A DNA stretch of 64,000 bases from Chryseobacterium sp. POL2 (lineage in GTDB: Bacteria > Bacteroidota > Bacteroidia > Flavobacteriales > Weeksellaceae). Where the stretch lies: positions 2,604,001 to 2,668,000 of the forward strand of contig NZ_CP049298.1 in NCBI RefSeq assembly GCF_011058315.1, written 5' to 3'. A program made the position numbers and the translations under genes. The notes beneath the pieces were generated by a model. That model was not told the origin of the DNA and made no database searches. It saw only the letters and a list, made by a program, of their open reading frames with translations. Shown here in pieces: positions 5,703 to 42,378 of the stretch (the first letter of the stretch is position 1; every line of letters begins with the position of its first letter).

Positions 5703-5929
5703 ATGAACGCCTATCTTAAGGCGATTGCCGATTTGTGTGGTGTTACCAAAGGTTGAACCATCATGTTGCCCGTTATACATTGGCTACTACAATAAGGCTT
5801 TCTAATGGTGCTTCTATAGAATACGTTAGCAAAATGCTAGGTCATAAAAGTATTACAACCACACAGTATTACACTAAACTCCTCGACAAGAACGTGGGTG
5901 AAGATATGTTGATTTTAAAAGAAGTATAA
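5703..5929 (+). pseudogene. C-terminal fragment of tyrosine recombinase (integrase)
   Basis: Two frames together encode the catalytic end of a Bacteroidota tyrosine recombinase. Frame 1 gives MNAYLKAIADLCGVTK (5703-5750) and runs into a TGA; the neighbouring frame continues with NHHVARYTLATTIRLSNG and ends with LGHKSITTTQYYTKLLDK. The HxxR box, the GH box and the Tyr nucleophile region (QYYTK) are all visible, so what survives is the end of the catalytic domain. The arm-binding, core-binding and first catalytic Arg regions are absent and a frameshift at about 5745-5755 separates the two pieces. It marks a former integration event next to the defence-like operon. Confidence 0.8.
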
Positions 5930-6005: not shown

Positions 6006-6869
6006 TTATCCGTTTATAATTTCCCCTCCATTAGGATGAATAACCTGACCGGTAATATAACTTGAATCTTCGCTTGCTAAAAATAGAAAACTCGGAGCCA
6101 CCTCATTAGGCATTCCTGCACGCTTCATTGGTGAATCGCTTCCAAATTCCGAATTTTTTTTTGGTGAGAAAGAAGAACTGATTAATGGCGTCCATATTGG
6201 GCCTGGTGCGACTGCATTCACTCGGATCCCTTTATCTACCAGATTGGAGGCTAAACTTCTTGTAAAAGACAGGATTGCTCCTTTCGTTGCGGAATAATCA
6301 ATAAGTTGGGGGCTTCCTCGGTAAGCTGTTACAGAGGATGTATTAATAATACATGATCCTTTTCTGAGAAATGGTAAGGCATATTTTGTAATCCAGAAAT
6401 AAGAGAAGAAATTATTTTGAAATGTTCTTAACAATTGGTCAGTAGAAATTTCTTCTAATGACGCGGATTCCCAATGCAAAGCCGCATTATTTATAAGGAT
6501 ATCTATTTTTTTATAAATTTTTATTGTCTTTTCAATTACTTTTTTGCACTGGCTTTCTTTTGCTAAATCTGCTTTTATCAATGTGCATTTTCTTGAAAAT
6601 GTTTCTACCTCTTTTTTAGTTTGTTTGGCATCGTTGGTTTCGTTGAGGTAGGCAATGATAATATCGGCTCCTTCTTTTGCGAATAGCAGCGCTACAGCTT
6701 TTCCAATACCGCTATCTCCTCCTGTAATCAATACTACTTTATCTTTAAGTTTTCCTTCTTTAGAATAGCTGATTGGATTAGTTTCGGGAAGAGGAGACAT
6801 TTTGTTTTCAGTTCCGGGTCGGTTTTGAGATTGTTTAGGTCTCAAAGCTCTTTTTTTTTGTTTTTTCAT
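6006..6869 (-). CDS. SDR-family NAD(P)-dependent oxidoreductase (YghA/stress type)
   Basis: A 287-residue short-chain dehydrogenase/reductase. It has a basic, Pro-rich N-terminal extension of about 40 residues, then the cofactor motif TGGDSGIG (49-56), NNAA (127-130), and the catalytic Ser179, Tyr192 and Lys196 (YSATK). The extended N-terminus and the C-terminal GQVIHPNGGEIING resemble general-stress SDRs (E. coli YghA, B. subtilis YdaD/YhxC-like). Substrate unknown; these enzymes are usually cytosolic. ATG at 6869. It stands alone, convergent with the recombinase remnant; about 720 bp separate its start from the next operon. Confidence 0.88.
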   Translation of the reverse strand: MKKQKKRALRPKQSQNRPGTENKMSPLPETNPISYSKEGKLKDKVVLITGGDSGIGKAVALLFAKEGADIIIAYLNETNDAKQTKKEVETFSRKCTLIKADLAKESQCKKVIEKTIKIYKKIDILINNAALHWESASLEEISTDQLLRTFQNNFFSYFWITKYALPFLRKGSCIINTSSVTAYRGSPQLIDYSATKGAILSFTRSLASNLVDKGIRVNAVAPGPIWTPLISSSFSPKKNSEFGSDSPMKRAGMPNEVAPSFLFLASEDSSYITGQVIHPNGGEIING

Positions 6870-7585
6870 AAGCTTTTATTAAAGCTAATGCAATAATTAT
6901 GCATTAAAAAGTTAGCCTATACAATATTGACTCATAATTTATGCGGTATTCTACTATCAAAGGGGGGATTGATGAATTTGTAGATCATAAAAATTAAAAT
7001 AAATAATATACTATATTGATTAAGATCTAAACAATAAAAAAAGTAAAAACTATTGATTATAGATGGATGCTATTAATAATCCGATATGCATAGATTATTT
7101 TAGTAGACCGCTGTTTGAAATCATAAAATTTACATAAATATTGCTGTATTTTTGTAAAGTAAATTAAAAATATGACCATATATAACATTTTACTTAAATA
7201 ATAAATGTGAAATTCGAATTTTTGAAAACAATTTCATTTATAACTTGTAGGTAAGTATTATTATGCTCAGTTGTACAAAACAAGGACAAAAAATCCTAAT
7301 ATTCTGATACTACTTTAGGTCTTAAAAGAATAATGATTCAATAGTAATAAGTGTTAATAAAAGTAATAAGGTTTGTATTGTATATGGGGGGATGATAGCA
7401 TGTCTTTTATCAAAGTTGGTAGAACGTTATTTTATCCTGTTAGTTTTTTTAAATGCAGGTTGGAGACTTTGATATGATTTAGTGCGGATTTATATAGTTA
7501 TTAATGACTAATAATAGATTGAGAAAATAAACTAGCTGTATTAATGATAATAAAAATCAATATCTTTACACCATATGCAATTTTT
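6870..7585. other. AT-rich gene-free stretch upstream of the five-gene operon
   Basis: About 700 bp with no convincing coding region on either strand. It must contain the promoters of the divergent SDR gene and of the XRE-led operon. Several TAnnTTTG-like strings occur (for example 7147-7154), but I could not pair one with a TTTG box at the usual 17-23 bp, so no promoter is called. No repeats or hairpins of note. Confidence 0.5.
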
Positions 7586-7786
7586 ATGAGTAAAAAAGTA
7601 ATTAATAGACTAAAGGTAGTACTTGCAGAGAAGAATGTAAGTAGTAAATGGCTTGCAGAACAGTTAGATAAGAACGAGGCTACAGTTTCAAGATGGTGTA
7701 CAAACGAGGTTCAACCGCCACTAAAGACTTTTGTAAAAATTGCAGAAAAACTGGATGTTAAATTAACCACATTGTTCAATGACTAA
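7586..7786 (+). CDS. XRE-family helix-turn-helix regulator, first gene of the operon
   Basis: A 66-residue HTH_3/XRE protein. The reading frame is open from 7544, but the ATG at 7586 gives the normal domain start (MSKKVINRLKVVLAEKNVSS). The helices SKWLAEQLDKNEATVSRWCT (recognition helix VSRWC) and the tail KTFVKIAEKLDVKLTTLF fit a C-protein-like regulator made of little more than the DNA-binding domain. It overlaps the following ATPase gene by eight bases. Small XRE controllers commonly lead restriction-modification operons and delay nuclease expression; that role is inferred here from position. Confidence 0.88.
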   Translation: MSKKVINRLKVVLAEKNVSSKWLAEQLDKNEATVSRWCTNEVQPPLKTFVKIAEKLDVKLTTLFND

Positions 7787-10409
7787 TCACAACAATAGCA
7801 CTAAAATTCCTTTTAAGGTTTCGGCAAGAACTGCTAGGCTTATTGGAAGGGAAAATATAGCTTCTTCCAAAGGAGCAATTATTGAATTGGTCAAAAATGG
7901 TTATGATGCTGACAGTAAAATTAGCATTGTGTATTTTGATAATAAATTTTCAACGGTTTTAAATGAAATAACTGAAGAATATGTAAGCGAATTAAATTCT
8001 TTAGGAATATCAAAAGTCGAAATCTTTGATTTATACGAAAAGGATATTGAAAACGACAATGCATATGTAATTAAGAAAGATGTTGATGAAGAAAAAAAGA
8101 AACAATTCAAAAACATAATAGCTAAGTTTTGTTCATTATACATTATTGATACTGGAGAAGGTATGACACAGAAAATTATTCGTGATTATTGGATGACGAT
8201 AGGTACAGATAATAAGGCGAATGATGTTTTCACTAAGTCAGGAAGGGTAAAAGCTGGTGCAAAAGGAATCGGTCGATTTGCCCTTGATAAATTAGGTGGC
8301 ATTTGTGAGATGACAACAATATTTAATCCGGAAGTACACGAAAACGATGTAGATGAGAATGGAGTTGCAACTGATTACTCGGGCTATAGATGGATTGTTA
8401 ATTGGGAAGATTTTGAAGGAGAGTTTAAAACAATAGACAAAGTTGATGCAGAGTTGATTGGCATAAATGCAAATTCAATAATTGAAGAAATTGAAGCACA
8501 AATACCATTCTTGGATTTATCAAAAATTAATTTTGAAGAAGGTGCTCAATTTGGAACGATTTTAAAAATATCAAATCTAAGAGATAATTGGGAAGATTTC
8601 TATGTTGACCAAGTTTTTACCGATTTGGAAGTACTTGTTCCACCAAAAGAAGTTGGGGAGTTTGAAATATATCTTTTTAGCTCTCTGGCGCAAAATAAAT
8701 ATGGTGAAGTATTAGGTTCAGTTTGTGATGATTATGACTATAAATTAGTTGCAAAGGCTGATGAAAATCAAAATATTTCAATTACAGTTTATCGTGAAGA
8801 GTATGATGTTGAGTTAATTCCAAATGGATTTTTTCAGAGAGAAGCGATGAAGAATGAGCCTTACAGAAAAGAAGATTTCCTTCAAGGATTTTGGAAAAAG
8901 GAAACATCATTTTCTCAAATATTGATGGGTTTTAAAGAACGTGACGAGGATAATACGTTTGACAATATTGGGGTTTTTGAATTTACATTTTACTTCCTAA
9001 AAAGAAGCTATTCAAGCGATGACGCAAGCCGTTTCTTTTACAAAGGATTTATGTCAAATAATCGTAAAGATTGGTTGAATAAATTTGGAGGAATTAAACT
9101 ATTCAGAGATAACTTCAGGGTAAGACCATACGGAGAGGCAAAAGATGCAGCGTTTGATTGGTTAAGTTTGGGTAATAGAAAAGCGGCAAGTCCTGCGGGT
9201 GTAGCAAAATCGGAAGGCGGATATAGAGTTGAGCCGGAAAATGTGGCTGGGGCAGTAAAAATTTCAAGGTTAACCAACGTAAATTTTGAAGATAAATCAA
9301 GCAGAGAAGGTTTGCAGAATAATAAAACCTTTGATGTGTTTAAGCAGCTTTTAGCAGGGATAATTAATGTTTTTGAAGACGACAGGGCATTTATTGCAAG
9401 AGAAATGGATGCTTATGATGATGAAAGATTTGGAGCAGAAAGGAATAGAAAAAAAGCTGAAGATTTGGCTAAAAAAATCGTTGCAGATTCCCGTGAGAAA
9501 AGAAAGCAAAGGGAAGATAATCCTAATAATGCTACCAATGATAATACATCCGAAGAACAACAAGCAAGTGATAGAGAAAAGGAAATTTTAGCAATTGAGA
9601 TAGAACGTAAAGAAGAACAAATCGAAAAACTTAAAGACGAACAAAAAGTATTACGAGGATTAGCAAGTAGCGGTATTGTTTTAGCGTCTTTTAGTCACGA
9701 TTTGAGTAAATTAAACGATGTATTGAGTTCAAGAACTGATAAGTTAAAAGAGCTAATTTCTGAAAAAATTAAAGAGGAAGATTATATTCAAGTTGAACGA
9801 AGAAAGAATCCTTTTTCTCAGATAGAGAAAATAAAAACACAGGATGTTAAACTTCAGAATTGGTTAAATTTTTCAATGGGTGCTACTAGAAAGGATAAAC
9901 GGAAAAGGCCGCAAGTATTCCTTCAAAATTATTTTCTTGAATTTAAAGAAGATTGGAAAACAGTATTGGATGAAAGAGGTACTAATTTAGAAATTTCAGA
10001 AATAGAAGATATTGAGTTACGAGTTTTTGAAATCGACCTTGATAGTATTTTTAATAATCTTTTGGTTAACTCTATTGAAGCTTTCAATCTAATGAAGGTA
10101 AATAGACAAAGAGAAATACAAGTAAAAGTTCACTCTAATGGGAAAGAAGTTATTTTTGACTATGCTGACAATGGTACAGGATTATCTAAAGATATTGAAA
10201 AAGCAGAAATTATTTTTGAGCCATTATTTACAACTCGAAGAAACCCACATACTGCTGAAGAGGAAGGCACAGGATTGGGTATGTGGTTAGTACAGTCAAT
10301 TGTTAAAGAAAATGATGGAAACCTAAAACTATTATTCCCTGAAAATGGATTTGGTTTAAGAATTTCATTTCCTGTAAAATATAAAAGACAAAAGGATGGA
10401 CAAGTATAA
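7779..10409 (+). CDS. Double-GHKL protein: Hsp90/MutL-like ATPase N-terminus plus histidine-kinase-like C-terminus
   Basis: An 876-residue cytoplasmic protein with two GHKL ATP-binding modules. Module 1: GAIIELVKNGYDAD (residues 32-45, Glu36 and Asn40), IIDTGEGMT (122-130) and the glycine lid KAGAKGIGRFALDK (158-171), the layout of HATPase_c_3/MutL-MORC-type ATPases. A long charged coiled-coil region (about 540-630) leads to an H-box-like segment, ASFSHDLSK with His640, then the kinase N-box NNLLVNSIEAFN (about 759-770), G1 DNGTGL (about 797) and G2 EGTGLGMWLV (about 829). It has no transmembrane or sensor domain. It overlaps the XRE gene by 8 bp and the receiver gene by 14 bp. The protein probably phosphorylates or otherwise controls the receiver protein; the trigger is unknown. 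Confidence 0.88.
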   Translation: MTNHNNSTKIPFKVSARTARLIGRENIASSKGAIIELVKNGYDADSKISIVYFDNKFSTVLNEITEEYVSELNSLGISKVEIFDLYEKDIENDNAYVIKKDVDEEKKKQFKNIIAKFCSLYIIDTGEGMTQKIIRDYWMTIGTDNKANDVFTKSGRVKAGAKGIGRFALDKLGGICEMTTIFNPEVHENDVDENGVATDYSGYRWIVNWEDFEGEFKTIDKVDAELIGINANSIIEEIEAQIPFLDLSKINFEEGAQFGTILKISNLRDNWEDFYVDQVFTDLEVLVPPKEVGEFEIYLFSSLAQNKYGEVLGSVCDDYDYKLVAKADENQNISITVYREEYDVELIPNGFFQREAMKNEPYRKEDFLQGFWKKETSFSQILMGFKERDEDNTFDNIGVFEFTFYFLKRSYSSDDASRFFYKGFMSNNRKDWLNKFGGIKLFRDNFRVRPYGEAKDAAFDWLSLGNRKAASPAGVAKSEGGYRVEPENVAGAVKISRLTNVNFEDKSSREGLQNNKTFDVFKQLLAGIINVFEDDRAFIAREMDAYDDERFGAERNRKKAEDLAKKIVADSREKRKQREDNPNNATNDNTSEEQQASDREKEILAIEIERKEEQIEKLKDEQKVLRGLASSGIVLASFSHDLSKLNDVLSSRTDKLKELISEKIKEEDYIQVERRKNPFSQIEKIKTQDVKLQNWLNFSMGATRKDKRKRPQVFLQNYFLEFKEDWKTVLDERGTNLEISEIEDIELRVFEIDLDSIFNNLLVNSIEAFNLMKVNRQREIQVKVHSNGKEVIFDYADNGTGLSKDIEKAEIIFEPLFTTRRNPHTAEEEGTGLGMWLVQSIVKENDGNLKLLFPENGFGLRISFPVKYKRQKDGQV

Positions 10410-11085
10410 AATACTCTTTATAGATGAGGAGAGAGATAGCTTTGATGATTTTCTTGATTATGTTGAAAAATCACCCAGGGCGGGTGAAATAGAACCGTTA
10501 ACACAGCTACCCTTGGAAGATTTAGATTCTATGATTGAAAAAATCATAGACATTTCTCCTGATGCAATCATAACAGATTTCAATCTGAATGAAAAAAGAG
10601 TTGATATTGATTATAACGTTCCATATAATGGAACAGAACTCCTTGAAACATTTCTTTCAATAAGAGATGGTTTCCCGTTCATTGTTTTAACTGCTTTTGA
10701 TGATATTGCTGTTAATCAGGCTGATGATGTAAATAAAGTATATGTAAAAAATATTTTGCACAAGTCAAATAAAGAAGAGATGACAAAAGCAAAGGCAACA
10801 TTTTTGGATAGGGTAATAGCATCAATAAATCATTATCAAGCAAAATTGAAAAATGCTGAAGAAGAACTCGTTCAATTATTGGAAAAGAAAAAGGCAGGTA
10901 AAACGAATTATGATGAAGAGCAAAGAATTATAGAGTTAGATGGTTTTATTGAAAAATCCGTTGACAAAGGTTCGTCGATACCAAACGAGTATAAATTGTC
11001 TTCAAATACTGATAGATTAGGAGAATTATTGAGCAGGGTCGATAATATGATTAACAAGTTAAATAAGGATGGTAATGACAATTGA
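10396..11085 (+). CDS. Stand-alone receiver-domain protein with C-terminal coiled coil
   Basis: A 229-residue response-regulator-like protein. The receiver signature is present but divergent: acidic pair in LFIDEERD (Asp10, Glu11), probable phospho-acceptor Asp61 in IITDFNLN, Thr99 in IVLTAFDD and a conserved-type Lys at 118 or 123 (YVKNILHK). An insertion of about 15 residues follows the phospho-acceptor. No DNA-binding output domain follows; residues 135-229 are charged and helical, including a coiled coil (KLKNAEEELVQLLEKKK). It overlaps both neighbours by 14 and 17 bases. In this setting the receiver may transmit the state of the kinase-like protein to the nuclease or methylase; that is inference. 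Confidence 0.8.
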   Translation: MDKYKILFIDEERDSFDDFLDYVEKSPRAGEIEPLTQLPLEDLDSMIEKIIDISPDAIITDFNLNEKRVDIDYNVPYNGTELLETFLSIRDGFPFIVLTAFDDIAVNQADDVNKVYVKNILHKSNKEEMTKAKATFLDRVIASINHYQAKLKNAEEELVQLLEKKKAGKTNYDEEQRIIELDGFIEKSVDKGSSIPNEYKLSSNTDRLGELLSRVDNMINKLNKDGNDN

Positions 11086-11635
11086 TTTTAGAAATGATAA
11101 TCCACAACGAACTTGTAATAAGACATATGTAAACTATCGGAGTTTCAAACCTTATCTTAGGGCGGATTTTAGAATGAAATGCGGTTATACTGATTGTAGC
11201 GATTTTTGGTTTGGAGGTACAAAGACGTTTCATATTGACCACTTTAAACCAAAAAGTAAATTTCCTGAACTTGAAACTACTTATTCTAATTTAGTTTATT
11301 GTTGCTCTTATGTGAATGTTCTGAAATCGGATGATGAAAATGAGTATTTGGATCCCTGTGAAGTAAACTATAATGAACATTTTGAAAGGGATAATGATGG
11401 AAATATTTTTCCAAAAACTGGGTCTGCAACAGCAGCCTATATGCACAAAAATTTGAAAATGTTTTTAAAGCGTTATCAGATTATTTGGACATTAGATAAA
11501 TTGATTGAAAAAATTGACCTACTTGGTGAGGTAATTGAAAAGAATGTAAACGTTTCTGATGAAATTAAAAAAGAATACATTAATCTAAATATTGAATTTC
11601 ATAAATACAGAAAATTTTTAAGTAAGGAACAATAG
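11069..11635 (+). CDS. HNH-type endonuclease
   Basis: A 188-residue protein with an HNH nuclease core in its first half: a knuckle Cys38/Cys43 (KCGYTDC), FHIDHFKPK with His55-Ile-Asp57-His58, Asn74 in YSNLVYCC, a second pair Cys78/Cys79, and Asn83/Lys86. This is the arrangement of the small HNH proteins (TIGR02646/PtuB-like) found in several phage-defence operons. The C-terminal half (about 110-188) is helical and unassigned. The usual CxxC spacing of the first knuckle is stretched to CxxxxC, so zinc binding may differ. It overlaps the receiver gene by 17 bases; the methylase follows after 9 bases. A role as the cleaving subunit is inferred. A start at 11075 is equally possible. Confidence 0.82.
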   Translation: MVMTIDFRNDNPQRTCNKTYVNYRSFKPYLRADFRMKCGYTDCSDFWFGGTKTFHIDHFKPKSKFPELETTYSNLVYCCSYVNVLKSDDENEYLDPCEVNYNEHFERDNDGNIFPKTGSATAAYMHKNLKMFLKRYQIIWTLDKLIEKIDLLGEVIEKNVNVSDEIKKEYINLNIEFHKYRKFLSKEQ

Positions 11636-11644
11636 ATTATTCAG

Positions 11645-13504
11645 ATGAACCCAAAAGTTTTTAAATTCCTCGAATCATCTGCTCTACCACCAAAAGATGT
11701 GGATAGACTTATTGTTTCTGCTTTTATCGAGATAAACAATCTTAGACTAGTAAATAATCTACTTCTTAAAGATTATTCTATAACCAAGAGAAATACAAAA
11801 AAAAGAAAAAAACTAAATGAATTTATTGCAATTGTAAAAGATGAAATTGAAGAATTTAATATAGAAGAGCTAATTGAACTCTTCGAGTTCGTTATTTCCC
11901 CTTCTGACAGAATTGTAAATGGTGCAATATATACTCCCTCAGATATTAGAGATTATATTGTAAACGAATCATTTAATAGAGATAATCTTGATATTGAAAA
12001 CTGCCAAATTGCAGATATTGCGTGTGGTTGTTCGGGATTTTTATATACGGCTGCAAAAGAACTAAAAAGTAGAACGAATAGTACATATCAATACATTTTT
12101 GAAAATCAAATTTATGGTTTAGATATTCAACAATATTCAGTAACTCGTAGTAAATTACTATTGAGTTTATTAGCATTGTCTGAAGATGAAGATTTTGAAG
12201 AATTTCATTTTAATATTTATCAAGGGGATGCTTTACTTTTCAATTGGCAAGAAGTTATTAATAATTTTAATGGTTTTGAAATTATAGTTGGAAATCCGCC
12301 TTATGTTTCAGCTCGTAATTTAGATGAAGATGCTAAAGAAAATGTAAAACTTTGGGAGGTTTGTTCAACAGGAAACCCAGACTTATATATTCCATTTTTC
12401 CAAATTGGTTATGAGAATTTAGCTCCTAATGGAATTCTTGGTTTTATTACAATGAACACTTTTTTCAAGAGTTTGAATGGTAGAGCTTTAAGAGCATATT
12501 TTGAAAGAAATAATACTTCTATCAAGATTATTGATTTTGGCACTCTTCAGATTTTTAAATCGAAGAGCACTTATACATGTGTTTGCTTTATAGAGAAAAC
12601 CGAACGGAATTATATCGAATATTATAAATCGGTTAATAAGGAGTTACCAACGAATGCTAATCTTTATCATAAAATTAATTATCAAAATTTAGATGCAAAA
12701 AAAGGTTGGAATCTTAATAATAATGAAATCATTTCTAGAATTGAGTGTGTTGGAAATCCTTTTGGAAAGAAATATAAGACAAGACACGGTATTGCAACAC
12801 TTAAAAATGATATTTATATTTTCAAACCTGTAGAAGAAGATGAGGATTATTTTTATCTTCAGAATGGTAGTCTTTTTCCAATTGAAAAAGGGATTTGTAG
12901 AGATATATTAAACTCAAATAAATTGAGTCGAGAAGTTGATTTTGATAATGTTGTTGAAAAAGTTTTGTTTCCATATGATAATAAAGTAAAACCTAAAGCA
13001 TTAGAAGAAGAGTTTTTGCAAGACACATATCCAAGAGCATTTGAATATTTACAAAGAAAAAGACTAATACTTTCTAAAAGAGATAAAGGTAAAGGAGAAT
13101 ATGAAAAATGGTTTGCTTTTGGTAGAACGCAATCTTTAGAAAAAGTAGGAAATAAATTATTCTTTCCTAAGTTTTCAGATAAGATTCCCAGCTATTTAAT
13201 AAGCAATGATATTGATTTAATGTTCTACAATGGTCAAGCAATTATTGGTCACTCTGAAGAAGAAATGCATTTGATTAAAAAGATTATGGAATCACGCTTG
13301 TTTTGGTATTATATTAAAACAACCAGTAAACCTTATTCTTCAGCATATTATTCTTTAAACGGAACTTATATCAAGAATTTTGGTATTCCAGAGTTTACTA
13401 ATGATGATATTGATTTTCTAATCAGTGAAGAAAATAGAAATATCATTGATGCTTTTTTAGAGGATTACTATGATATACAATTGACAGACGAAATGGTATT
13501 TTAA
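11645..13504 (+). CDS. N6-adenine DNA methyltransferase, Eco57I/TaqI-like
   Basis: A 619-residue class I methyltransferase of the N6-adenine group. SAM-binding motif I reads IADIACGCSGFLYTA (about 121-135), a variant of DPACGSGxF, and the catalytic motif IV is NPPY at 217-220 (VGNPPYVSARN). The region after the catalytic domain has KRLILSKRDKGKG, WFAFGRTQ and IIGHSEEEMHLI, in the order seen in TaqI_C-type target-recognition domains. The protein therefore has its own specificity domain and could protect a site alone. No nuclease motif is obvious within it, so cleavage is probably left to the HNH protein. It is the last gene of the operon, 31 bp before a terminator. Confidence 0.88.
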   Translation: MNPKVFKFLESSALPPKDVDRLIVSAFIEINNLRLVNNLLLKDYSITKRNTKKRKKLNEFIAIVKDEIEEFNIEELIELFEFVISPSDRIVNGAIYTPSDIRDYIVNESFNRDNLDIENCQIADIACGCSGFLYTAAKELKSRTNSTYQYIFENQIYGLDIQQYSVTRSKLLLSLLALSEDEDFEEFHFNIYQGDALLFNWQEVINNFNGFEIIVGNPPYVSARNLDEDAKENVKLWEVCSTGNPDLYIPFFQIGYENLAPNGILGFITMNTFFKSLNGRALRAYFERNNTSIKIIDFGTLQIFKSKSTYTCVCFIEKTERNYIEYYKSVNKELPTNANLYHKINYQNLDAKKGWNLNNNEIISRIECVGNPFGKKYKTRHGIATLKNDIYIFKPVEEDEDYFYLQNGSLFPIEKGICRDILNSNKLSREVDFDNVVEKVLFPYDNKVKPKALEEEFLQDTYPRAFEYLQRKRLILSKRDKGKGEYEKWFAFGRTQSLEKVGNKLFFPKFSDKIPSYLISNDIDLMFYNGQAIIGHSEEEMHLIKKIMESRLFWYYIKTTSKPYSSAYYSLNGTYIKNFGIPEFTNDDIDFLISEENRNIIDAFLEDYYDIQLTDEMVF

Positions 13505-13535
13505 ACCACGCTCTGCCAATCCCAAGAAAAAATAC

Positions 13536-13571
13536 GGCTTTATACAGTAATCTCTGTATAAAGCCTTTTTT
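13536..13571 (+). terminator. Strong intrinsic terminator of the five-gene operon
   Basis: A perfect 12-bp stem (GGCTTTATACAG / CTGTATAAAGCC) with a 6-base loop is followed by six T. It lies 32 bases after the methylase stop and closes the operon. Confidence 0.9.
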
Positions 13572-13601
13572 ATTTGCTGTATCAAAACAAAAACTTGTAA
13601 T

Positions 13602-14840: not shown

Positions 14841-14940
14841 TGAGAGTCGAGAGATAGGGGACTGGGGACTGGAGACTGGAGACTGGAGACTGGTGACTAG
14901 AGATTGGGGATTGGGGACTGGGGATTGGTGATTGGTGGGT
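14841..14940 (+). repeat. Degenerate heptamer array (array 2)
   Basis: About 13 tandem units of RGRGAYT, for example ggggact ggagact, agagatt ggggatt and ggtgatt. Variation is confined almost wholly to purine-purine and C-T exchanges. The array sits 110 bp upstream of the SusC start. Open frames read from its complement give Pro-Gln-Ser repeats and are artefacts. Confidence 0.9.
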
Positions 14941-15052: not shown

Positions 15053-18000
15053 ATGAAAAAAAACTTTTGTAGACTAGGCCATTTTCGATTGGGTCTAGGC
15101 TTCGCCTTGCTCGTCTCGGGTATGGCATTTGGCCAGATGCGCAGCATCAGTGGCAGTGTGATGGATCGTGACAGGCCTTTATCGGGTGTTACGGTAAGAC
15201 AAAAAGGAACGGAGCTAATTGCTGTAACCGACAAAGAAGGTAGGTTCCAAATAGAGGTTAATGGCAGTGATGCCGTACTGGAGTTTGAACATCCCGACTA
15301 TGAGCAGGTAAGTGAGCGCATAGGACAGGAGAACCGCATTAAGGTGTTGCTGTCTAAAGCGATAAATAAGATAGAGGAAGTATTGATTAATGCGGGCTAC
15401 TACACTGTAAAAGACAAAGAACGGACGGGTAGTATTGCTAAGGTCACCGCAAAGGACATCGAGAACCAACCTGTAACCAATGTGTTGTCGGCAATCCAAG
15501 GTCGCGCATCTGGCGTTAATATAGTCCAGAGTAGTGGTGTGCCAGGGAGTAATTTTGATGTTCAGATAAGGGGGCAAAATAGTTTGCGTACTTTGTCTAA
15601 TAGTGGTATTAATGGTAGTGCTCCTTTGTATGTTGTAGATGGGGTGCCTTTAGGAAGCGATACCTCTACCTTATCGACAGCTTCTCTATTACCAACAAAA
15701 AGTATAAACCCGCTTAACACTATAAACCCCGATGATATAGCTTCGATAGAGATCCTTAAAGATGCCGATGCCACGGCTATATATGGCTCTAGGGGAGCAA
15801 ATGGGGTGGTGCTAATAACGACAAAAAAAGGACGGTCGGGAAGCCCTAGATTGGTGGTAAATACGTCTTACGGTTTTAGTCAGTCGCTTTCTAATCTCAA
15901 TATGATGAATACCGAGCAATACCTCAAGGTTCGGCGTAAAGCGTTTGCAAACGATGGCATTTCCACGTATCCCACCACAGCATACGATATTAATGGAATT
16001 TGGGATCCCAAGCGCTATACCGATTGGAAAAAAACACTCATAGGGCATACGGCAGATTATACAGATACCCGTTTTTCTTTAAGCGGAGGTAGCGAGCAGT
16101 TGACGTTTTTAGTAAGTGGTTCTAACAATGTACAACACACTGTTTTTGGCAAAGATTTTAAATATGTAGATAATAATATATCCAGTAGTTTGGCGTATAA
16201 ATCTGCCGATGGTAAATTGGTGCTTAATCTAAGTAACCGCTATTCTAATCAGCAAAATAATATTCCACAATCTGATATTACAACTCAAGCTTATTTCTTA
16301 TCACCTAATGCTCCAGCTTTATATCATCAAAATGGGAGTCTAAATTGGGAGAACAATACGTTTTCTAATCCTATTGCAGCTTACGAAGCTACATATTCAT
16401 ATAATAATCGTCAGTTTTTAAATAGTTTCAATGTTGGATATGAACCGGTTAAAAATCTTAAACTAAAACTTAATGGTGGATATAATTATACGGTTTTTCA
16501 AGAGTTATTGCTTAAGCCAAATACGATGTATAACCCATCTATAGCTTTAGGGCAATCCAGTGCCAATTCTTCGGCAAGTAAACGAAATCAAAATAAAAAT
16601 TCTTTTATTGTAGAGCCTCAAGTTGAGTGGTTGTTTGCAAAAAATAATCACAAGGTAGATGTGTTAGTTGGGGGCTCTCTTCAAAAAGATTCAAACAGCC
16701 AAGGTTCAATTAGTGGGTTGGGTTTCGAGAGTAATGCATTTATTACAAATATAGGTGCTGCAACTACGAAAAATATTCAGGATCAGATAACAGTCGATTA
16801 TAAATATGCAGCGGTGTTTAGCCGATTCAATTACCATTATAAGGATCGTTATTTTCTTAATGTTACAGCTCGTAGAGATGGTAGTAGTCGTTTTGGACCA
16901 GATAAGCGGTATGCTAATTTTGGTGCGGTTGGCGCTGCTTGGATTTTTTCTGAGGAGGCATGGCTGAAAAATCAACACTACTTATCTTATGGAAAACTAA
17001 GGGCTAGCTTTGGCACATCGGGTAGTGATAATATTGGCGATTATCAATATTTAGATTCTTATACGGTGTCGTCTTTGGCTTATAATAATATTACAGGGCT
17101 ATCACCCATGCGTTTGTTTAATCCTAATTACAGTTGGGAGAAAACCAATAAACTGGAAGCTGCTTTGGAATTAGGCTTTTTCCAAAATCGTATTAATTTC
17201 AATTTATCATGGTATCGCAATCGATCTGGTAATCAGTTAGTAGGATATCAGTTGCCGTCCATTACAGGGTTTACAAGTGTAGTTGCTAATTTGGATGCTG
17301 TAGTACAAAATCAGGGTTGGGAAATAGAGCTTTCCTCAGAGCCAATTATTGGAGATAAATTTAAATGGAGTAGTAGTTTTAATTTAAGTTTTCCATCGAA
17401 TAAGTTAATCGCTTTTCCAGGTATAGAAGGTTCTACTTACTCTAACAATTATATCGTTGGTAAGTCACTTAATATTGTTAAGCTTTATCAGTTCGAAGGT
17501 ATCGATCCTACTACAGGTCTCTATACGTTTACAGATTTTAATAAGGATGGTAAGATTTCGTCTCCCAATGATAATAAGGCGGTAGAAAATATTGGGGTTC
17601 GGTTTTTTGGAGGATGGTCCAATAATCTAAAATTTAAAAATTGGAATATATCTTTTCTATTTCAGTTTGTAAAACAAAAGAATCGCAATTATAATTATAT
17701 TATGCCTTTGCCTGGTAGTATGAATAATTTACCTGTAGAACTACTAGATGTTTGGTCGTCAGATAATCCATCGGGGCAATATATGCCCTATACAAGCATT
17801 AGTAAGCCTGCTTTTACTTATTTTAGAGCAAGTACCGCAACCGTATCAGACGCATCATATATTAGGCTAAAAAATATACAAGTTGCCTATAACATCCCTC
17901 TAGAAAGTAGATTTGTTAACAACGTTAAAATTTATTTCCAAGGGCAAAATCTACTCACTTTTACAAAGTATTTTGGGATAGATCCCGAGTTTCAATTCAT

Positions 18001-18055
18001 AGGATTTGCTCCTCCAGTTCGTACTTATTCTTTCGGTACTCAGTTTAACTTTTAA
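15053..18055 (+). CDS. SusC/RagA-family TonB-linked outer-membrane receptor
   Basis: A 1000-residue TonB-dependent transporter. It has a signal peptide ending near AFGQ (residue 28), a carboxypeptidase-regulatory-like domain (SGSVMDRDRPLSGVTVRQKG), then a plug domain with LYVVDGVPLG and IEILKDADATAIYGSRGANG (signature about residues 235-255), followed by the 22-strand barrel ending in Phe. It imports a ligand captured by the SusD partner in the outer membrane. SusD follows after 12 bases and an S9 peptidase directly after that, which points to peptides rather than glycans as the ligand, but this is inference. A leader hairpin and a heptamer array lie upstream. Confidence 0.95.
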   Translation: MKKNFCRLGHFRLGLGFALLVSGMAFGQMRSISGSVMDRDRPLSGVTVRQKGTELIAVTDKEGRFQIEVNGSDAVLEFEHPDYEQVSERIGQENRIKVLLSKAINKIEEVLINAGYYTVKDKERTGSIAKVTAKDIENQPVTNVLSAIQGRASGVNIVQSSGVPGSNFDVQIRGQNSLRTLSNSGINGSAPLYVVDGVPLGSDTSTLSTASLLPTKSINPLNTINPDDIASIEILKDADATAIYGSRGANGVVLITTKKGRSGSPRLVVNTSYGFSQSLSNLNMMNTEQYLKVRRKAFANDGISTYPTTAYDINGIWDPKRYTDWKKTLIGHTADYTDTRFSLSGGSEQLTFLVSGSNNVQHTVFGKDFKYVDNNISSSLAYKSADGKLVLNLSNRYSNQQNNIPQSDITTQAYFLSPNAPALYHQNGSLNWENNTFSNPIAAYEATYSYNNRQFLNSFNVGYEPVKNLKLKLNGGYNYTVFQELLLKPNTMYNPSIALGQSSANSSASKRNQNKNSFIVEPQVEWLFAKNNHKVDVLVGGSLQKDSNSQGSISGLGFESNAFITNIGAATTKNIQDQITVDYKYAAVFSRFNYHYKDRYFLNVTARRDGSSRFGPDKRYANFGAVGAAWIFSEEAWLKNQHYLSYGKLRASFGTSGSDNIGDYQYLDSYTVSSLAYNNITGLSPMRLFNPNYSWEKTNKLEAALELGFFQNRINFNLSWYRNRSGNQLVGYQLPSITGFTSVVANLDAVVQNQGWEIELSSEPIIGDKFKWSSSFNLSFPSNKLIAFPGIEGSTYSNNYIVGKSLNIVKLYQFEGIDPTTGLYTFTDFNKDGKISSPNDNKAVENIGVRFFGGWSNNLKFKNWNISFLFQFVKQKNRNYNYIMPLPGSMNNLPVELLDVWSSDNPSGQYMPYTSISKPAFTYFRASTATVSDASYIRLKNIQVAYNIPLESRFVNNVKIYFQGQNLLTFTKYFGIDPEFQFIGFAPPVRTYSFGTQFNF

Positions 18056-18067
18056 TTTTTACCTATT

Positions 18068-19438
18068 ATGAAAATACTATCAATAATTACAATAGTTATT
18101 CTAATGATATTGTGTTCTGTGCTTTCGTGCGATAAATTAGTAGATGTAGATGTTCCACAAAATCAAATGGATAAATCTACAGTGTTCGAAAATAATCAAA
18201 CGGCTTATGCTGCATTAAGTAGTCTATATGCCGATTTGCAAAAAAACTCACCTCTTGCAGGGGACAAAATAGCGCCATTTTTAAGCGTTTATACCGATGA
18301 CCTTATATCGTATTCTCAAAATACCCCCAACTCTACTTATGATCTTTATACTAATTTGTTAATCGATACCAATGATTCGGTTTATACAATTTGGTCAGCT
18401 GCTTGGCAACAAATTTATTTAGCGAATTCTATTCTAGAGTCGCTAGAAAAATCAACCTCACTTAGCCAAGATGTACACGATAATATTATGGGCGAAACAC
18501 TTTTTATTCGTTCTTTAGTTTATTTTTATTTAAATCAAGTTTATGGTGATATCCCTTATATTACGTCTACAAATTATACGATTAATATGTCGTTATCTAA
18601 ACGACCTGAAACCGAATTATTAGAGCTTATTCGTTTAGATTTTCAAAAAGCGGCCTCATTGCTAAAAGATGATTACAGAAATGCCGAACGTCTTTATCCA
18701 AATAAAAAAGTGGTAGCGTTAATGTTGGCAAAAGTTGCTATACTTCAAAAAAAATGGTCTGTTGCGGAAGTTTTTTTGAACGATGTACTTAATTTTTCAT
18801 TGTATCAACCAGAAAAAGATATTAAGAAAGTATTTCTCAAATCTGGGAAGCATATTTTATGGCAGTTAAAACCACTAAAAGAAGGTGTTCCAACACCAGA
18901 AGGGAGTCTCTATTATTTTAATAATGCAGCGCCTACCTTATATTCGTTATCGCCTGATCTTGTTGGTCAGTTTACAGATATGGATCTTAGAAAAGTAAAC
19001 TGGATTACTGCAGTGTCTTCTAATTCTAATACATGGTACCGTTCGTCTAAGTATAAAAATTTGTCGGCAAATACAGATGAGTATTCTATTATTTTTAGGA
19101 TAGATGAGGCTTATCTTCTAATGGCAGAAACGCTAATTCGGCAAGGCCGCAGCCTAGAGGCTATCCCTTTTATTAATGTATCTCGTAAAAGAGCTGGTTT
19201 AGCTGGATTGTCGGGCGTTTATTCCTCAGATAATCTGATGCTAGAATTAGCATTAGAATACCGTAGGGAGTTTTTTGTAGAACAAGGGCATCGGTTTTTT
19301 GATTTAAAGAGATTGGGGCTTTTAAGTCTTTTAAGTGCGAATAAGCCCAATTGGAAAAGTCATAACCAATTATGGCCTATTCCTCAACGTGATATATTGT
19401 TAAATCGAAATCTCAACCCTCAAAACGATGGTTACTAG
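18068..19438 (+). CDS. SusD/RagB-family ligand-binding lipoprotein
   Basis: A 456-residue lipoprotein with the lipobox ending at Cys21 (CSVLSC), placed on the outer membrane as the lid of the SusC transporter. Helical TPR-like segments cover the middle, and the C-terminal RagB/SusD region has the EYRREFFVEQGHRFFDLKRL signature and ends with LWPIPQRDILLN. Length is slightly below the family average. It is preceded by SusC and its TAG is immediately followed by the ATG of the peptidase gene, so all three are cotranscribed. Confidence 0.93.
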   Translation: MKILSIITIVILMILCSVLSCDKLVDVDVPQNQMDKSTVFENNQTAYAALSSLYADLQKNSPLAGDKIAPFLSVYTDDLISYSQNTPNSTYDLYTNLLIDTNDSVYTIWSAAWQQIYLANSILESLEKSTSLSQDVHDNIMGETLFIRSLVYFYLNQVYGDIPYITSTNYTINMSLSKRPETELLELIRLDFQKAASLLKDDYRNAERLYPNKKVVALMLAKVAILQKKWSVAEVFLNDVLNFSLYQPEKDIKKVFLKSGKHILWQLKPLKEGVPTPEGSLYYFNNAAPTLYSLSPDLVGQFTDMDLRKVNWITAVSSNSNTWYRSSKYKNLSANTDEYSIIFRIDEAYLLMAETLIRQGRSLEAIPFINVSRKRAGLAGLSGVYSSDNLMLELALEYRREFFVEQGHRFFDLKRLGLLSLLSANKPNWKSHNQLWPIPQRDILLNRNLNPQNDGY

Positions 19439-26172: not shown

Positions 26173-27042
26173 ATGGATTCACATTTACTATTACAAAAAA
26201 CCGAGGAACTTTGGGAGGAACTCCTTAGAAAAAATCAACACCTCCAAAGGCAACAAAGCAATGAGTTGCTGTGTGCCCAATATCAGCTCATGGAAGTGGA
26301 TGCATGCATCCAGCTGTTGAAATCATGGGTACTAAAGCATGAGTTTGCGGATTGGTCTAGTGAGATCATTTTTTTTAAAAAGTGGAAGGCAAAATTTTGT
26401 GGTCATTTTATTTTTCTTTCAAAAAAGATAGAATGTTTGGTTTCTTTTCCAGTGAATTCTCCACGTATTACCAAGCGCCTTATTGAACATCAGTTGGAGC
26501 AAATGAATTTATTTTGTTGTGAGCACCGCGATTTTATTTCCTACTACCGTCGTGGTGCGAGTCATAATGACAAACGTTATTTTTTACGTTTTAGGTTTGA
26601 TCTTAATGAAAAAATTCCGAATGATTACCACAGTTATGACAATCGTTTTTGTACTGCTTATGATCATCTTTTAGCACAGGTATTTGCCAATGAGTCTTTT
26701 GAGGTCTTTTTACAACAAAAATTAGATAGGCTGAAAAACAGGTCGGCAGAAGATCAGTATTCTGAATCTCCGCTTACGGCTCTTCAGTGGACGGGATCGA
26801 AATCCGCTCTTATCGAATTGCTATTCGCATTGTACCATAGCCGGTCTATAAATGCGGGCTCTATTGAATTGGCGGAGTTTATACGGGTTTTTGAAAAGTT
26901 GTTTAATACAGGTCTTGGAAATTATCATAAGACTATAGGTGAGCTTCGGTATCGAAAAGTTGATCGCACGAAATTTTTGCATCATTTAGAAGAGGTGTTG
27001 TGTTTGTATATGGATGGTTTTGATGAGGCTGTGGGGTGTTAG
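26173..27042 (+). CDS. RteC-domain protein
   Basis: A 289-residue RteC family protein; RteC was defined as a regulator on Bacteroides conjugative transposons. The family's C-terminal signature is clear: LQWTGSKSALIELLFALYHS, then FEKLFNTGLGNYHKTIGELR. Many flavobacterial copies lie outside complete conjugative elements, as here. It follows the AraC gene by 45 bases. The stop TAG overlaps the first bases of a heptamer repeat array, so the gene's 3' end is a junction with repeat DNA. Target promoter unknown; the cassette just downstream is a candidate. Confidence 0.88.
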   Translation: MDSHLLLQKTEELWEELLRKNQHLQRQQSNELLCAQYQLMEVDACIQLLKSWVLKHEFADWSSEIIFFKKWKAKFCGHFIFLSKKIECLVSFPVNSPRITKRLIEHQLEQMNLFCCEHRDFISYYRRGASHNDKRYFLRFRFDLNEKIPNDYHSYDNRFCTAYDHLLAQVFANESFEVFLQQKLDRLKNRSAEDQYSESPLTALQWTGSKSALIELLFALYHSRSINAGSIELAEFIRVFEKLFNTGLGNYHKTIGELRYRKVDRTKFLHHLEEVLCLYMDGFDEAVGC

Positions 27043-27112
27043 GGATTGGGGATTGGGGATTGGAGACTAGAGATTGGGGATTGGGGATTAGGGATTGGGG
27101 ATTGGTAGATAT
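27041..27112 (+). repeat. Degenerate heptamer array (array 3)
   Basis: About ten tandem RGRGAYT units (agggatt, ggggatt, ggagact, agagatt) begin inside the stop codon of the RteC gene. T-ending units dominate here. Same strand as the other arrays. Confidence 0.9.
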
Positions 27113-28967: not shown

Positions 28968-28997
28968 GTTTTCAATCTCGGCTTCGCGCGGTGGGAT

Positions 28998-29208
28998 GGG
29001 GGCTAGAGATTGGAGATTGGAGATTGGAGACTGGGGACTAGGGACTAGGGACTAGGGATTAGAGATTAGAGATTGGAGATTAGAGACTAGAATCAAGAAT
29101 CAAGAAACTGGGGATTGGACACTAGAGATTAGAGATTGGGGACTTGGGATTGGAGACTAGAGATTAGAGATTAGAGATTGGATACTGGTGACTAGAGTTA
29201 AGAGCCAA
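28998..29208 (+). repeat. Long degenerate heptamer array (array 4)
   Basis: Roughly 28 RGRGAYT units over 210 bp (ggagatt, ggggact, agggact, agagatt), with a short interruption around 29090-29110 where CAAGAAT is repeated instead. It ends at the stop codon of the minus-strand LuxR gene. The sequence before it (28976-28997) is GC-rich. Confidence 0.9.
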
Positions 29209-35278: not shown

Positions 35279-35297
35279 TTATTAAGATGTGTTTTAT

Positions 35298-35522
35298 GGA
35301 GACTGGAGACTGGAGACTGGAGACTGGGGACTAGGGATTGGAGACTGGAGATTGGAGACTGGGGACTAGGGACTAGGGACTAGGGATTGGGGACTGGAGA
35401 TTAGAGATTGGAGATTGGAGACTAGGGATTGGGGACTAGAGATTAGAGACTAGGGATTGGGGACTAGGGATTGGGGACTAGAGATTAGAGACTAGAGATT
35501 GGAGATTAGAGACTAGAGTCAA
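35298..35522 (+). repeat. Longest degenerate heptamer array (array 5)
   Basis: About 32 RGRGAYT units in register over 225 bp (ggagact, ggggact, agggatt, agagatt and all mixtures). Departures from register are nearly absent. It is followed at 35528-35555 by a 28-bp sequence that recurs with one mismatch after array 6 (42287-42314), and at 35561-35580 by a 20-mer identical to 42179-42198. Confidence 0.92.
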
Positions 35523-42200: not shown

Positions 42201-42378
42201 CTTTGACAAGCTCAGTGACCGATTGGGGACTAGAGACTAGAGACTAGAAACTGGAAACTAGAAACTAGAGACTGGAGACTGGAGACAAGAATTGAGAGGG
42301 ATGGGTGGCTGAGCTTGTCGAAGCCGTGTTGTTGCACTTCGACAAACTCAGTTACCAACTTTGACGGGCTCAGCGACC
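42201..42378. repeat. REP-like CTTYGACRRRCTCAG motifs around a hairpin
   Basis: Three direct copies of a 20-bp motif: CTTTGACAAGCTCAGTGACC (42201-42220), CTTCGACAAACTCAGTTACC (42337-42356) and CTTTGACGGGCTCAGCGACC (42359-42378). One inverted copy, GGCTGAGCTTGTCGAAGCC (42307-42325), can fold against the copy at 42337. A diverged copy (CTTTGACAGGTTCAG) follows array 3 near 27121. I know this motif as a common intergenic repeat in flavobacteria; no REP-type transposase is in the window. Confidence 0.75.
42221..42287 (+). repeat. Degenerate heptamer array (array 6)
   Basis: Nine to ten units; in addition to RGRGAYT this array has A at the fourth position in several units (agaaact, ggaaact). It is embedded between CTTYGAC motifs and is followed by the 28-bp repeat shared with array 5. 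Confidence 0.88.

Follow-up and report, generated by a model that had tools for sequence, protein, structure and literature searches.

R-M-linked proteins that combine two GHKL domains with a histidine kinase arrangement, and that are paired with a receiver (families PF19191 and PF19192), have been described, in the accessible text of that work, as a possible two-component system acting in restriction-modification (R-M) loci (Bellieny-Rabelo et al., 2021; PMC8011034). The accessible portions of two other papers provide further precedents. MORC and paraMORC GHKL ATPases are found in R-M operons, where paraMORC1 may co-occur with HNH nucleases (Iyer et al., 2008; PMC2292703), and the paraMORC3-like Shedu protein VcSduA needs both its GHKL ATPase and its nuclease for phage defence (PMC12137116). 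We have analysed a stretch of 64,000 nucleotides of Chryseobacterium sp. POL2 (contig NZ_CP049298.1, positions 2,604,001–2,668,000; hereafter the window, whose own positions are used below) in which a single operon of five genes codes, in this order, for an XRE regulator, a double-GHKL protein, a receiver, an HNH nuclease and an N6-adenine methylase, and finishes in a strong terminator. The reading that we favour, and hold to be rather probable, is that of a mobile R-M-type defence cassette under a cytosolic phosphorelay, in which the nuclease would be licensed by phosphotransfer; phosphotransfer, cleavage and defence are what we infer from the genes and their relatives. The components of the operon are the following.

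7586..7786, plus strand: XRE/Cro-CI regulator P0001, 66 amino acids (Pfam HTH_26, 5.5e-9)
7779..10409, plus strand: double-GHKL protein P0002, 876 amino acids (Pfam HATPase_c_3 and HATPase_c)
10396..11085, plus strand: receiver protein P0003, 229 amino acids (structure model and PDB matches, predicted local distance difference test score, pLDDT, 84.6)
11069..11635, plus strand: HNH nuclease P0004, 188 amino acids (PADLOC PtuB 8.2e-16; Pfam HNH 1.9e-4)
11645..13504, plus strand: N6-adenine DNA methylase P0005, 619 amino acids (Eco57I 9.1e-30; PADLOC MTase_II 7.7e-101)
13536..13565, plus strand: intrinsic terminator closing the operon (stem of 12 bp, loop of 6 nt, T tail)

All five reading frames are intact. 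The junctions given in the preliminary description of this DNA proved exact to the base: an overlap of 8 bp between the XRE and double-GHKL genes, of 14 bp between the latter and the receiver gene, of 17 bp between receiver and HNH genes, and a gap of 9 bp before the methylase. The terminator was also as strong as had been proposed, the region 13500–13590 folding at -19.9 kcal/mol (z -4.6).

The strongest evidence that these genes form one system comes from their association in other genomes. An alignment of 11 kinase sequences was scanned against one genome per species, yielding 445 relatives. The best 80, together with six plasmid loci, five genomes of the class and the window, made up the 92 loci examined with hidden Markov models (HMMs) of the last four proteins (the kinases of L016 and L076 are identical, and independent loci are thus slightly fewer). 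The order kinase, receiver, HNH, methylase on one strand was found in 76 of the 92; one further locus had the opposite strand, two an extra or split methylase and three the methylase first. Leaving the outgroup L010 aside, 78 of the remaining 91 loci, the window included, had an intact kinase open reading frame (ORF) and at least 3.3 kb downstream, and all four genes were present in 75 of these 78. The exceptions were L047, with a methylase in two pieces, L060, with a receiver ORF of 70 amino acids, and L082, in which no methylase was recognised. At this last locus a protein of 1215 amino acids with a caspase domain (Peptidase_C14; L082 11965–15612) converges on the kinase-receiver-HNH set. 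The 13 loci dropped comprised contig ends (L048, L061, L073, and L078, where no methylase was found), five with short room (L042, L052, L069, L072 and L092, all but the last having the four genes) and four without a kinase ORF of at least 700 amino acids (L050, L062, L063 and L012). Of the complete loci, 75 are on the plus strand and have the methylase as their last gene, a set partly different from the preceding 75; in these the three successive junctions were overlapping or separated by 10 bp or less in 71, 74 and 69 cases, the ORFs being taken from the first start codon so that overlaps are upper estimates.

The 79 complete cassettes are spread over Bacteroidota (45), Pseudomonadota (12), Bacillota (3), Campylobacterota (2) and, with one each, Kiritimatiellota, Auribacterota, Methanobacteriota (an archaeal bin) and Thermodesulfobacteriota. 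The other 13 of the 79 have no listed phylum, one of them being on a Deinococcus plasmid, which brings the total to nine named phyla, one archaeal. The linkage was found from the other side as well. A receiver profile of two sequences, one from the window and one from a locus that shares an identical kinase with a genome recovered, was searched against 385 genomes of the class and gave six matches below 1e-30, all directly beside a kinase and in precisely the six class genomes that have the kinase, plus a weak one at 2.5e-11. An HNH profile searched against 395 class genomes gave the same six below 1e-60 and four others at 2.6e-16 or weaker. Because the gene order is repeated in 75 of 78 loci and recovered by the reverse searches, a chance arrangement is unlikely, and from these comparisons we conclude that the last four genes are a real mobile cassette. 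The preliminary description had suggested asking whether the genes occur together in distant phyla, and had named as fatal to its proposal a lack of co-occurrence or a methylase and nuclease that were unrelated neighbours; the census and the reverse searches contradict both possibilities.

The double-GHKL protein has an N-terminal GHKL ATPase of MORC/MutL type (HATPase_c_3, residues 29–179, 1.7e-8), a long helical linker and a C-terminal DHp-CA histidine kinase core (HATPase_c, residues 752–863, 4.2e-13). In its structure model (pLDDT 80.5) residues 624–870 matched DHp-CA kinase cores, with a best Z of 19.2 and a root mean square deviation (rmsd) of 2.1 over 149 aligned residues, and a profile of 50 kinases of the cassette family matched Leptospira LvrB at profile positions 582–825 (4.6e-14). 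What had been called a kinase-like CA domain is thus, by sequence and model, a complete DHp-CA core with an invariant histidine, His640. The residues of the core (His640, N760, N764, D797, G799, G801, G830, G832 and G834) are each present in 87 of 87 kinases, His640 being followed by E in 57 and D in 30 of them, and the motifs of the N-terminal ATPase (E36, N40, D124, G126, G128, K162, G163) are kept in 85–87 of 87. The two kinases without Glu36 (L009 and L097) have only gaps in this part of the alignment; we take the role of this residue as catalytic base from MutL/Hsp90-type ATPases. The motifs of both ATP sites and the complete His-Asp pair are kept down to ca. 26% kinase identity. The predicted active residues of the kinase, the receiver and the nuclease are located as follows.

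7884..7886, plus strand: codon of Glu36, predicted catalytic base of the N-terminal ATPase (Glu in 85 of 87 kinases)
9696..9698, plus strand: codon of His640, the histidine predicted to accept the phosphate (conserved in 87 of 87 kinases)
10576..10578, plus strand: codon of Asp61, which ends beta 3 and is predicted to be phosphorylated (conserved in 86 of 86 receivers)
11240..11242, plus strand: codon of His58, predicted catalytic histidine of the HNH nuclease (His in 85 of 85)

The separate receiver of the preliminary description was borne out. Pfam matched a receiver at an E-value of only 0.052; the fold became evident from the PDB profile and from the structure model, in which a CheY-like (beta-alpha)5 receiver, with beta 3 ending in Asp61 and beta 4 in Thr99, is followed by three long C-terminal helices. 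The PDB structure matches were mostly receivers and response regulators (best Z 14.3, rmsd 3.7, 144 aligned), together with a few odd rows, two respiratory complex I chains and one USP11 entry. Besides the invariant Asp61, D10 is conserved in 82, T99 in 84 and K118 in 85 of the 86 receivers. Neither Pfam nor the structure model detected a DNA-binding domain.

In the HNH nuclease, H58, N74, N83 and K86 are each present in 85 of 85 sequences. The knuckle cysteines at positions 41 and 82 are both present in 50 and both absent in 35, never single, with three changes of the pair on the kinase tree, a pattern suggesting that both halves of a probable metal site were lost together while the rest of the nuclease was conserved. 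The methylase belongs to the Eco57I class of N6-adenine methylases (Pfam, PADLOC), with an NPPY motif at residues 217–220 (12293–12304) of which N, P, P and Y are kept in 80, 81, 81 and 80 of 81 sequences; its target-recognition part is probably C-terminal. No match to the HNH was found in 50,697 phage records at an E-value of 1e-5, and the kinase matched in six phage records, always partially and never over more than 80% of the query.

We compared the evolution of the four proteins through distance correlations over the 79 loci that carry all of them. The values were high for kinase-receiver (r = 0.89), receiver-HNH (0.83) and kinase-HNH (0.78) and lower for kinase-methylase (0.44) and HNH-methylase (0.34). 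Once the kinase was accounted for, HNH and the C-terminal part of the methylase were practically uncorrelated (partial correlation 0.007, or 0.07–0.09 with equal column numbers), which would tend to argue against an HNH with a matched specificity of its own. With 60 columns per part, the partial correlation of the receiver domain was higher with the kinase half (0.54) than with the ATPase half (0.28). HNH, for its part, followed the C-terminal helices of the receiver given the receiver domain (partial 0.42). Among column pairs analysed by mutual information, the top receiver-HNH pairs, 182-133 and 182-135, stood out, HNH columns 133 and 135 also pairing with kinase column 800. The size class of the methylase (cut at 575 amino acids) switched at least 13 times on the kinase tree, a quick LG+G4 reconstruction with 22 open forks of 83 and long-branch warnings. 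Judging by these correlations and by this interchange of size classes, kinase, receiver and nuclease seem to be inherited as a single machine, to which the methylase would add an exchangeable specificity part. The methylase had been taken at first as part of the R-M core; it is indeed present in nearly all cassettes, but it is also the part most often exchanged. In a classical type II pair both enzymes must share one site. The cassette appears to differ from such a pair and to be closer to systems that rely on their methylase to recognise the DNA to be cut.

The operon of the window has a close relative in Epilithonimonas hominis (L033), and the comparison delimits what has moved. Its extent and that of the nearest trace of mobility are given here.

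7552..13482, plus strand: block in common with E. hominis (blastn, 86.6% DNA identity; no match in the flanks compared)
5720..5926, plus strand: C-terminal remnant of a tyrosine integrase, context lying outside the system (PF00589, 1.6e-7)

Because there is a single block of homology to E. hominis, with no match in the compared flanks, we take 7552–13482 as the extent of the transferred unit, in which the five genes moved together. A mechanical reading of the XRE ORF starts at 7544; we favour the start at 7586 because the homology begins only at 7552 and the XRE protein of E. hominis has 66 amino acids. The counts of synonymous to non-synonymous codon differences between both genomes (raw counts, uncorrected for sites) were 15:4 for XRE, 127:40 for the kinase, 63:18 for the receiver, 40:25 for HNH and 190:134 for the methylase, a synonymous excess in every gene, as expected of working protein genes. 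The methylase is the fastest diverging, with 485 of 619 identical residues versus 836 of 876 (95%) for the kinase. A similar XRE gene immediately precedes that of the kinase in no fewer than 18 of the 85 loci with 250 bp or more of upstream sequence, a lower bound, as an XRE-like ORF seen by eye before the L018 kinase was left uncounted. The five-gene unit first proposed holds for the window operon and the E. hominis block; over the wider set of loci XRE is, by these counts, an accessory member.

The integrase remnant is real, but to call it beside the operon, as was done initially, was too generous, for it lies 1.66 kb upstream with an unrelated gene in between (SDR-type, named by eye, 6006–6869). 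No tRNA that might mark an insertion site was found in the 64-kb window. In the one other genome of the genus an empty site was not demonstrable, the left flank gene giving a 72% match on one contig and the right flank only scattered pieces. Two other features of the surroundings were seen. Downstream, at 15053–19438, there are two large genes for proteins of 1000 and 456 amino acids that by eye resemble a SusC/SusD-type outer-membrane pair. Tandem arrays of related 7-bp units (GGGGACT or TGGAGAC type) are scattered at 14853–14935, 27042–27105, 28997–29204, 35297–35518 and 42228–42291, and pieces resembling the first of them recur elsewhere in the genome.

More distant relatives of the kinase show different parts around it. 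A profile search of 392 genomes of the phylum gave matches in 41 at an E-value of 1e-30, and among 20 regions fetched two were ordinary cassettes and 18 distant branches. A C5 methylase was present in seven of the 18 (Pfam/PADLOC), in one case fused to and in two adjoining a Vsr endonuclease; three had an N6_N4 methylase, one an N6 methylase with an MBL-fold protein, and two Ssp or PAPS-reductase genes. In the other five (L149, L154, L157, L162 and L163) no modification gene was recognised within three ORFs, the neighbours being without HMM test; L163 had, by eye, no receiver-like ORF adjoining the kinase, and the contig of L151 stops after the kinase. The 13 distant kinases compared, from C5-, N6_N4- and MBL-linked loci among others, are full-length relatives of that of the window (hhalign 5.2e-92 over 694 columns). 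Invariance extends in them to the positions corresponding to His640, to the D, to the two N and to most G residues, one G being conserved at 90% or more. The receivers of the distant loci are related over the receiver domain (hhalign 96.9%, 88 columns), two Asp positions being invariant in 12 of them. PADLOC models for REase_II match the N-terminal part of some relatives (L016 1e-4, L113 2.9e-8, L158 4.5e-12, L150 2.6e-4), so similar proteins are filed in PADLOC as type II enzymes.

The place of HNH directly after the receiver was taken by an MBL-fold protein in L113 (5161–8937) and L166 (6287–10090), both confirmed by Pfam. L113, on a Hymenobacter plasmid, has the order N6-methylase, kinase, receiver, MBL, its receiver being without a Pfam match and recognised by the receiver HMM at 7e-5. 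On a Pseudanabaena plasmid (L116 5290–10063) kinase and receiver are followed by annotated MBL pieces flanking an IS982 transposase, the larger of which had no Pfam match. Kinase-receiver pairs were also seen together with SspC and SspD (PADLOC) in L150 (4253–12913), with PAPS_reduct (Pfam) in L164 (7891–11249) and beside an annotated DUF4007 gene in L010 (6989–16259); two-component control of phosphorothioation-based defence is possible at these three loci. Variation of both the DNA mark and the effector around a kinase-receiver module would be expected of a licensing device and not of the dedicated regulator of one promoter.

Under the reading that we favour, the methylase would supply sequence recognition and mark the host DNA. 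The N-terminal ATPase would act as an ATP-gated clamp reading DNA that is unmodified or foreign in some other way, or a methylase complex that has stalled, and its closure would be relayed through the helical linker to the kinase core, leading to autophosphorylation on His640. The phosphate would then pass from His640 to Asp61, and the phosphorylated receiver would bind HNH, most likely by the C-terminal helices, activating it against unmarked DNA; the opposite sign, with phosphorylation holding HNH off, is also possible. XRE, where present, would keep expression low. Because of the co-occurrence of the genes and the invariance of His640 in the DHp-CA core and of Asp61 in the receiver, the two-component-controlled restriction system of the preliminary description can be considered a fair reading, in which the sensing of phage or of the state of the DNA, like the phosphotransfer and the licensing, is inferred.

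The main rival is abortive infection: on perceiving phage or damage to the DNA, kinase and receiver would turn HNH loose against the DNA of the cell itself, or against nucleic acids generally, and the methylase would mark DNA only to hold the system off. We regard it as unlikely, though not negligible. Among the defence models HNH is closest to PtuB and to retron HNH effectors, and, being short and not following the C-terminal part of the methylase, it may lack sequence specificity of its own. The methylase, however, accompanies nearly all cassettes and is swapped rather than lost, as expected for a marking of self and non-self.

Two-component systems are mostly transcriptional, and the window operon does contain an XRE regulator, so that kinase and receiver might do no more than regulate how an otherwise ordinary type II R-M pair is transcribed, or how stable it is. 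This appears improbable to us when a receiver in which no DNA-binding domain was detected co-evolves with the nuclease, and when receiver and HNH genes overlap or are 10 bp or less apart in 74 of the 75 complete loci that are on the plus strand and end with the methylase. Nearly on a par, and in our view slightly more improbable, is a C-terminal kinase domain that is only structural, a second GHKL clamp, with the receiver as a phosphorylation-independent adaptor. An N-terminal GHKL domain alone has been proposed or shown to work with nucleases, as the accessible text on paraMORC and Shedu indicates (PMC2292703, PMC12137116), and column coupling at the expected kinase-receiver interface was weak. 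Yet a scaffold would need none of the residues kept in very divergent copies: His640 and the N and G boxes in 87 of 87, Asp61 in 86 of 86, T99 in 84 and K118 in 85. That a regulatory pair and an R-M pair were independent modules joined by chance in an island, as the integrase remnant nearby and its mobile context might suggest, can practically be discarded given the same gene set in nine named phyla, the linkage from both sides and the co-evolution of three of the four proteins.

Several observations weigh against the licensing of the nuclease by phosphotransfer. In HisKA kinases the residue four after the phospho-His is often T or N, and here it is variable (K in 25, S in 21 and N in 19 of 87). 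The fold of the N-terminal half found no independent match in PDB sequence or structure searches: residues 1–544 gave a best E-value of 0.26, and the structure list was filled by matches to the kinase core, for which reason it carries no information on the fold of this half or on an S5 domain behind the GHKL domain, as in MORC and paraMORC proteins. HNH of the window lacks two of the four knuckle cysteines, as do 35 of 85 sequences in all, making the metal site unusual. Mutual information between columns of different proteins was low, with region enrichments of 0.2–1.7-fold, and the kinase-receiver contact did not stand out from the rest. Every protein pair tested, those with the methylase included, exceeded shuffles (0.001 each), shared ancestry contributing. 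The 575-amino-acid cut behind the 13 or more methylase switches is arbitrary, with lengths of 571–598 amino acids occurring, and was applied without a shuffled-label control. There is some circularity in the HNH reverse test, whose model takes 6 of its 10 rows from the six genomes recovered, so that the gap between 1e-60 and 2.6e-16 is in part a product of the model. Several census loci are metagenome bins, in which contigs can be misplaced, and L082 carries kinase, receiver and HNH with no methylase recognised nearby.

More tentatively, the double-GHKL kinase and its receiver might be a portable phospho-licensing module for recognition of self and non-self DNA, connecting any DNA mark to any effector. 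The marks would include N6-methyladenine, 5-methylcytosine, N4/N6 and phosphorothioate, and the effectors HNH, MBL-fold, Vsr-linked and other proteins; we find this generalisation possible but doubtful. If true, it would represent a kinase-signalled class of restriction distinct from types I–IV. The control of restriction enzymes is generally ascribed to DNA methylation, ATP-driven translocation or the timing of expression, and a nuclease licensed by a His-Asp phosphorelay would be surprising to specialists in two-component systems or restriction. It would join two fields linked so far only by prediction in the searchable literature, and would explain a nuclease seemingly without recognition domain paired with ever-changing methylases. 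The cassette is compact (less than 6 kb) and widespread, and its universal residues H640 and D61 are open to mutation.

Among known systems, two-component systems are matched, by sequence and model, in a kinase core that has the phospho-His and the N, D and G boxes, and in a receiver fold with its Asp, acidic pocket, Thr and Lys; as in type II R-M, a methylase and an endonuclease are, by sequence, encoded together. P0005 is of the same Eco57I class as type II and BREX PglX methylases, but the restriction partner is here a kinase-linked HNH. Neither PglZ nor BrxC was among the matches listed for the five proteins, of which only P0005 was PglX-like; similarly, only P0005 resembled a MADS component (Mad2, 4.1e-18), with no other Mad model among those matches. 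P0004 scored best against PtuB models of Septu and retrons among the defence models listed. Its partner is nevertheless a GHKL kinase, its NCBIfam PtuB score was 24.7 versus a cut-off of 150 bits, and no PtuA partner appeared among the PADLOC matches listed (the best 25 of 53 for P0004 and of 35 for P0005). P0002 had no PADLOC match at an E-value of 0.1 or below. With MORC and paraMORC proteins, as presented in the accessible text (PMC2292703), the cassette shares an N-terminal GHKL domain with intact ATP motifs beside methylases and nucleases; they differ in having neither C-terminal kinase core nor receiver, and paraMORC operons usually carry a superfamily II helicase, absent among the five window genes. 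VcSduA likewise combines a GHKL ATPase with a nuclease, but in what is accessible of its description (PMC12137116) it is a single fused protein with a PD-(D/E)xK nuclease and without kinase core, receiver or methylase.

One of the systems predicted by DefensePredictor may carry a HATPase-REC pair, both names figuring among the abbreviations of the Figure 6F legend in the accessible text (PMC13092281). We found no experimental test of the kinase-receiver pair and no name for the cassette in the open-licence PMC literature, which leaves most subscription papers outside. On the question of whether the operon is an already named system, the closest precedent is thus the predicted R-M-linked pairs, as far as the accessible text of PMC8011034 goes. 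The likeness to these HEF_HK (PF19191) and Response_reg_2 (PF19192) elements is considerable: an N-terminal HATPase_c_3, DHp-like helices with a conserved His, a C-terminal HATPase_c, an adjoining receiver-like gene and an R-M neighbourhood. The cassette does belong to this wider kind, that of a HATPase_c_3, DHp and HATPase_c protein with an adjoining receiver gene in an R-M locus. Membership of the window pair in the two families was considered and dropped, as neither Pfam model matched. HEF_HK (cut-off 24.1 bits) had no match to P0002 at an E-value of 1 or below and none in its own genome at 0.001 or below; among 11 aligned kinases only the outlier L010 was matched, at 18.8 bits, and none of 13 distant kinases at 0.01 or below. 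Response_reg_2 matched none of 11 receivers at 1 or below and nothing in the same genome, and hhalign of the cassette receiver with seven true Response_reg_2 proteins gave 2.8%. Weak Response_reg_2 matches in L028–L032 were rejected, as by eye they resemble ordinary OmpR-type regulators. In the accessible text of PMC8011034 the receiver query has 600 amino acids and the neighbours are mostly C5 methylases, whereas the cassette receiver has 229, and a fixed four-gene set with HNH and N6-methylase is not described there. The earlier statement, by an author to whom no R-M operon with a kinase-like domain and a receiver was known, must accordingly be restricted: such pairs had been described as a possible two-component system, and it is the kinase and receiver of the window that find no match in either family. 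What was known already, within the accessible text of PMC8011034, is the R-M-linked two-component pair predicted in 2021, and what is new is the fixed HNH/N6-methylase cassette, whose kinase and receiver in the window match neither Pfam model.

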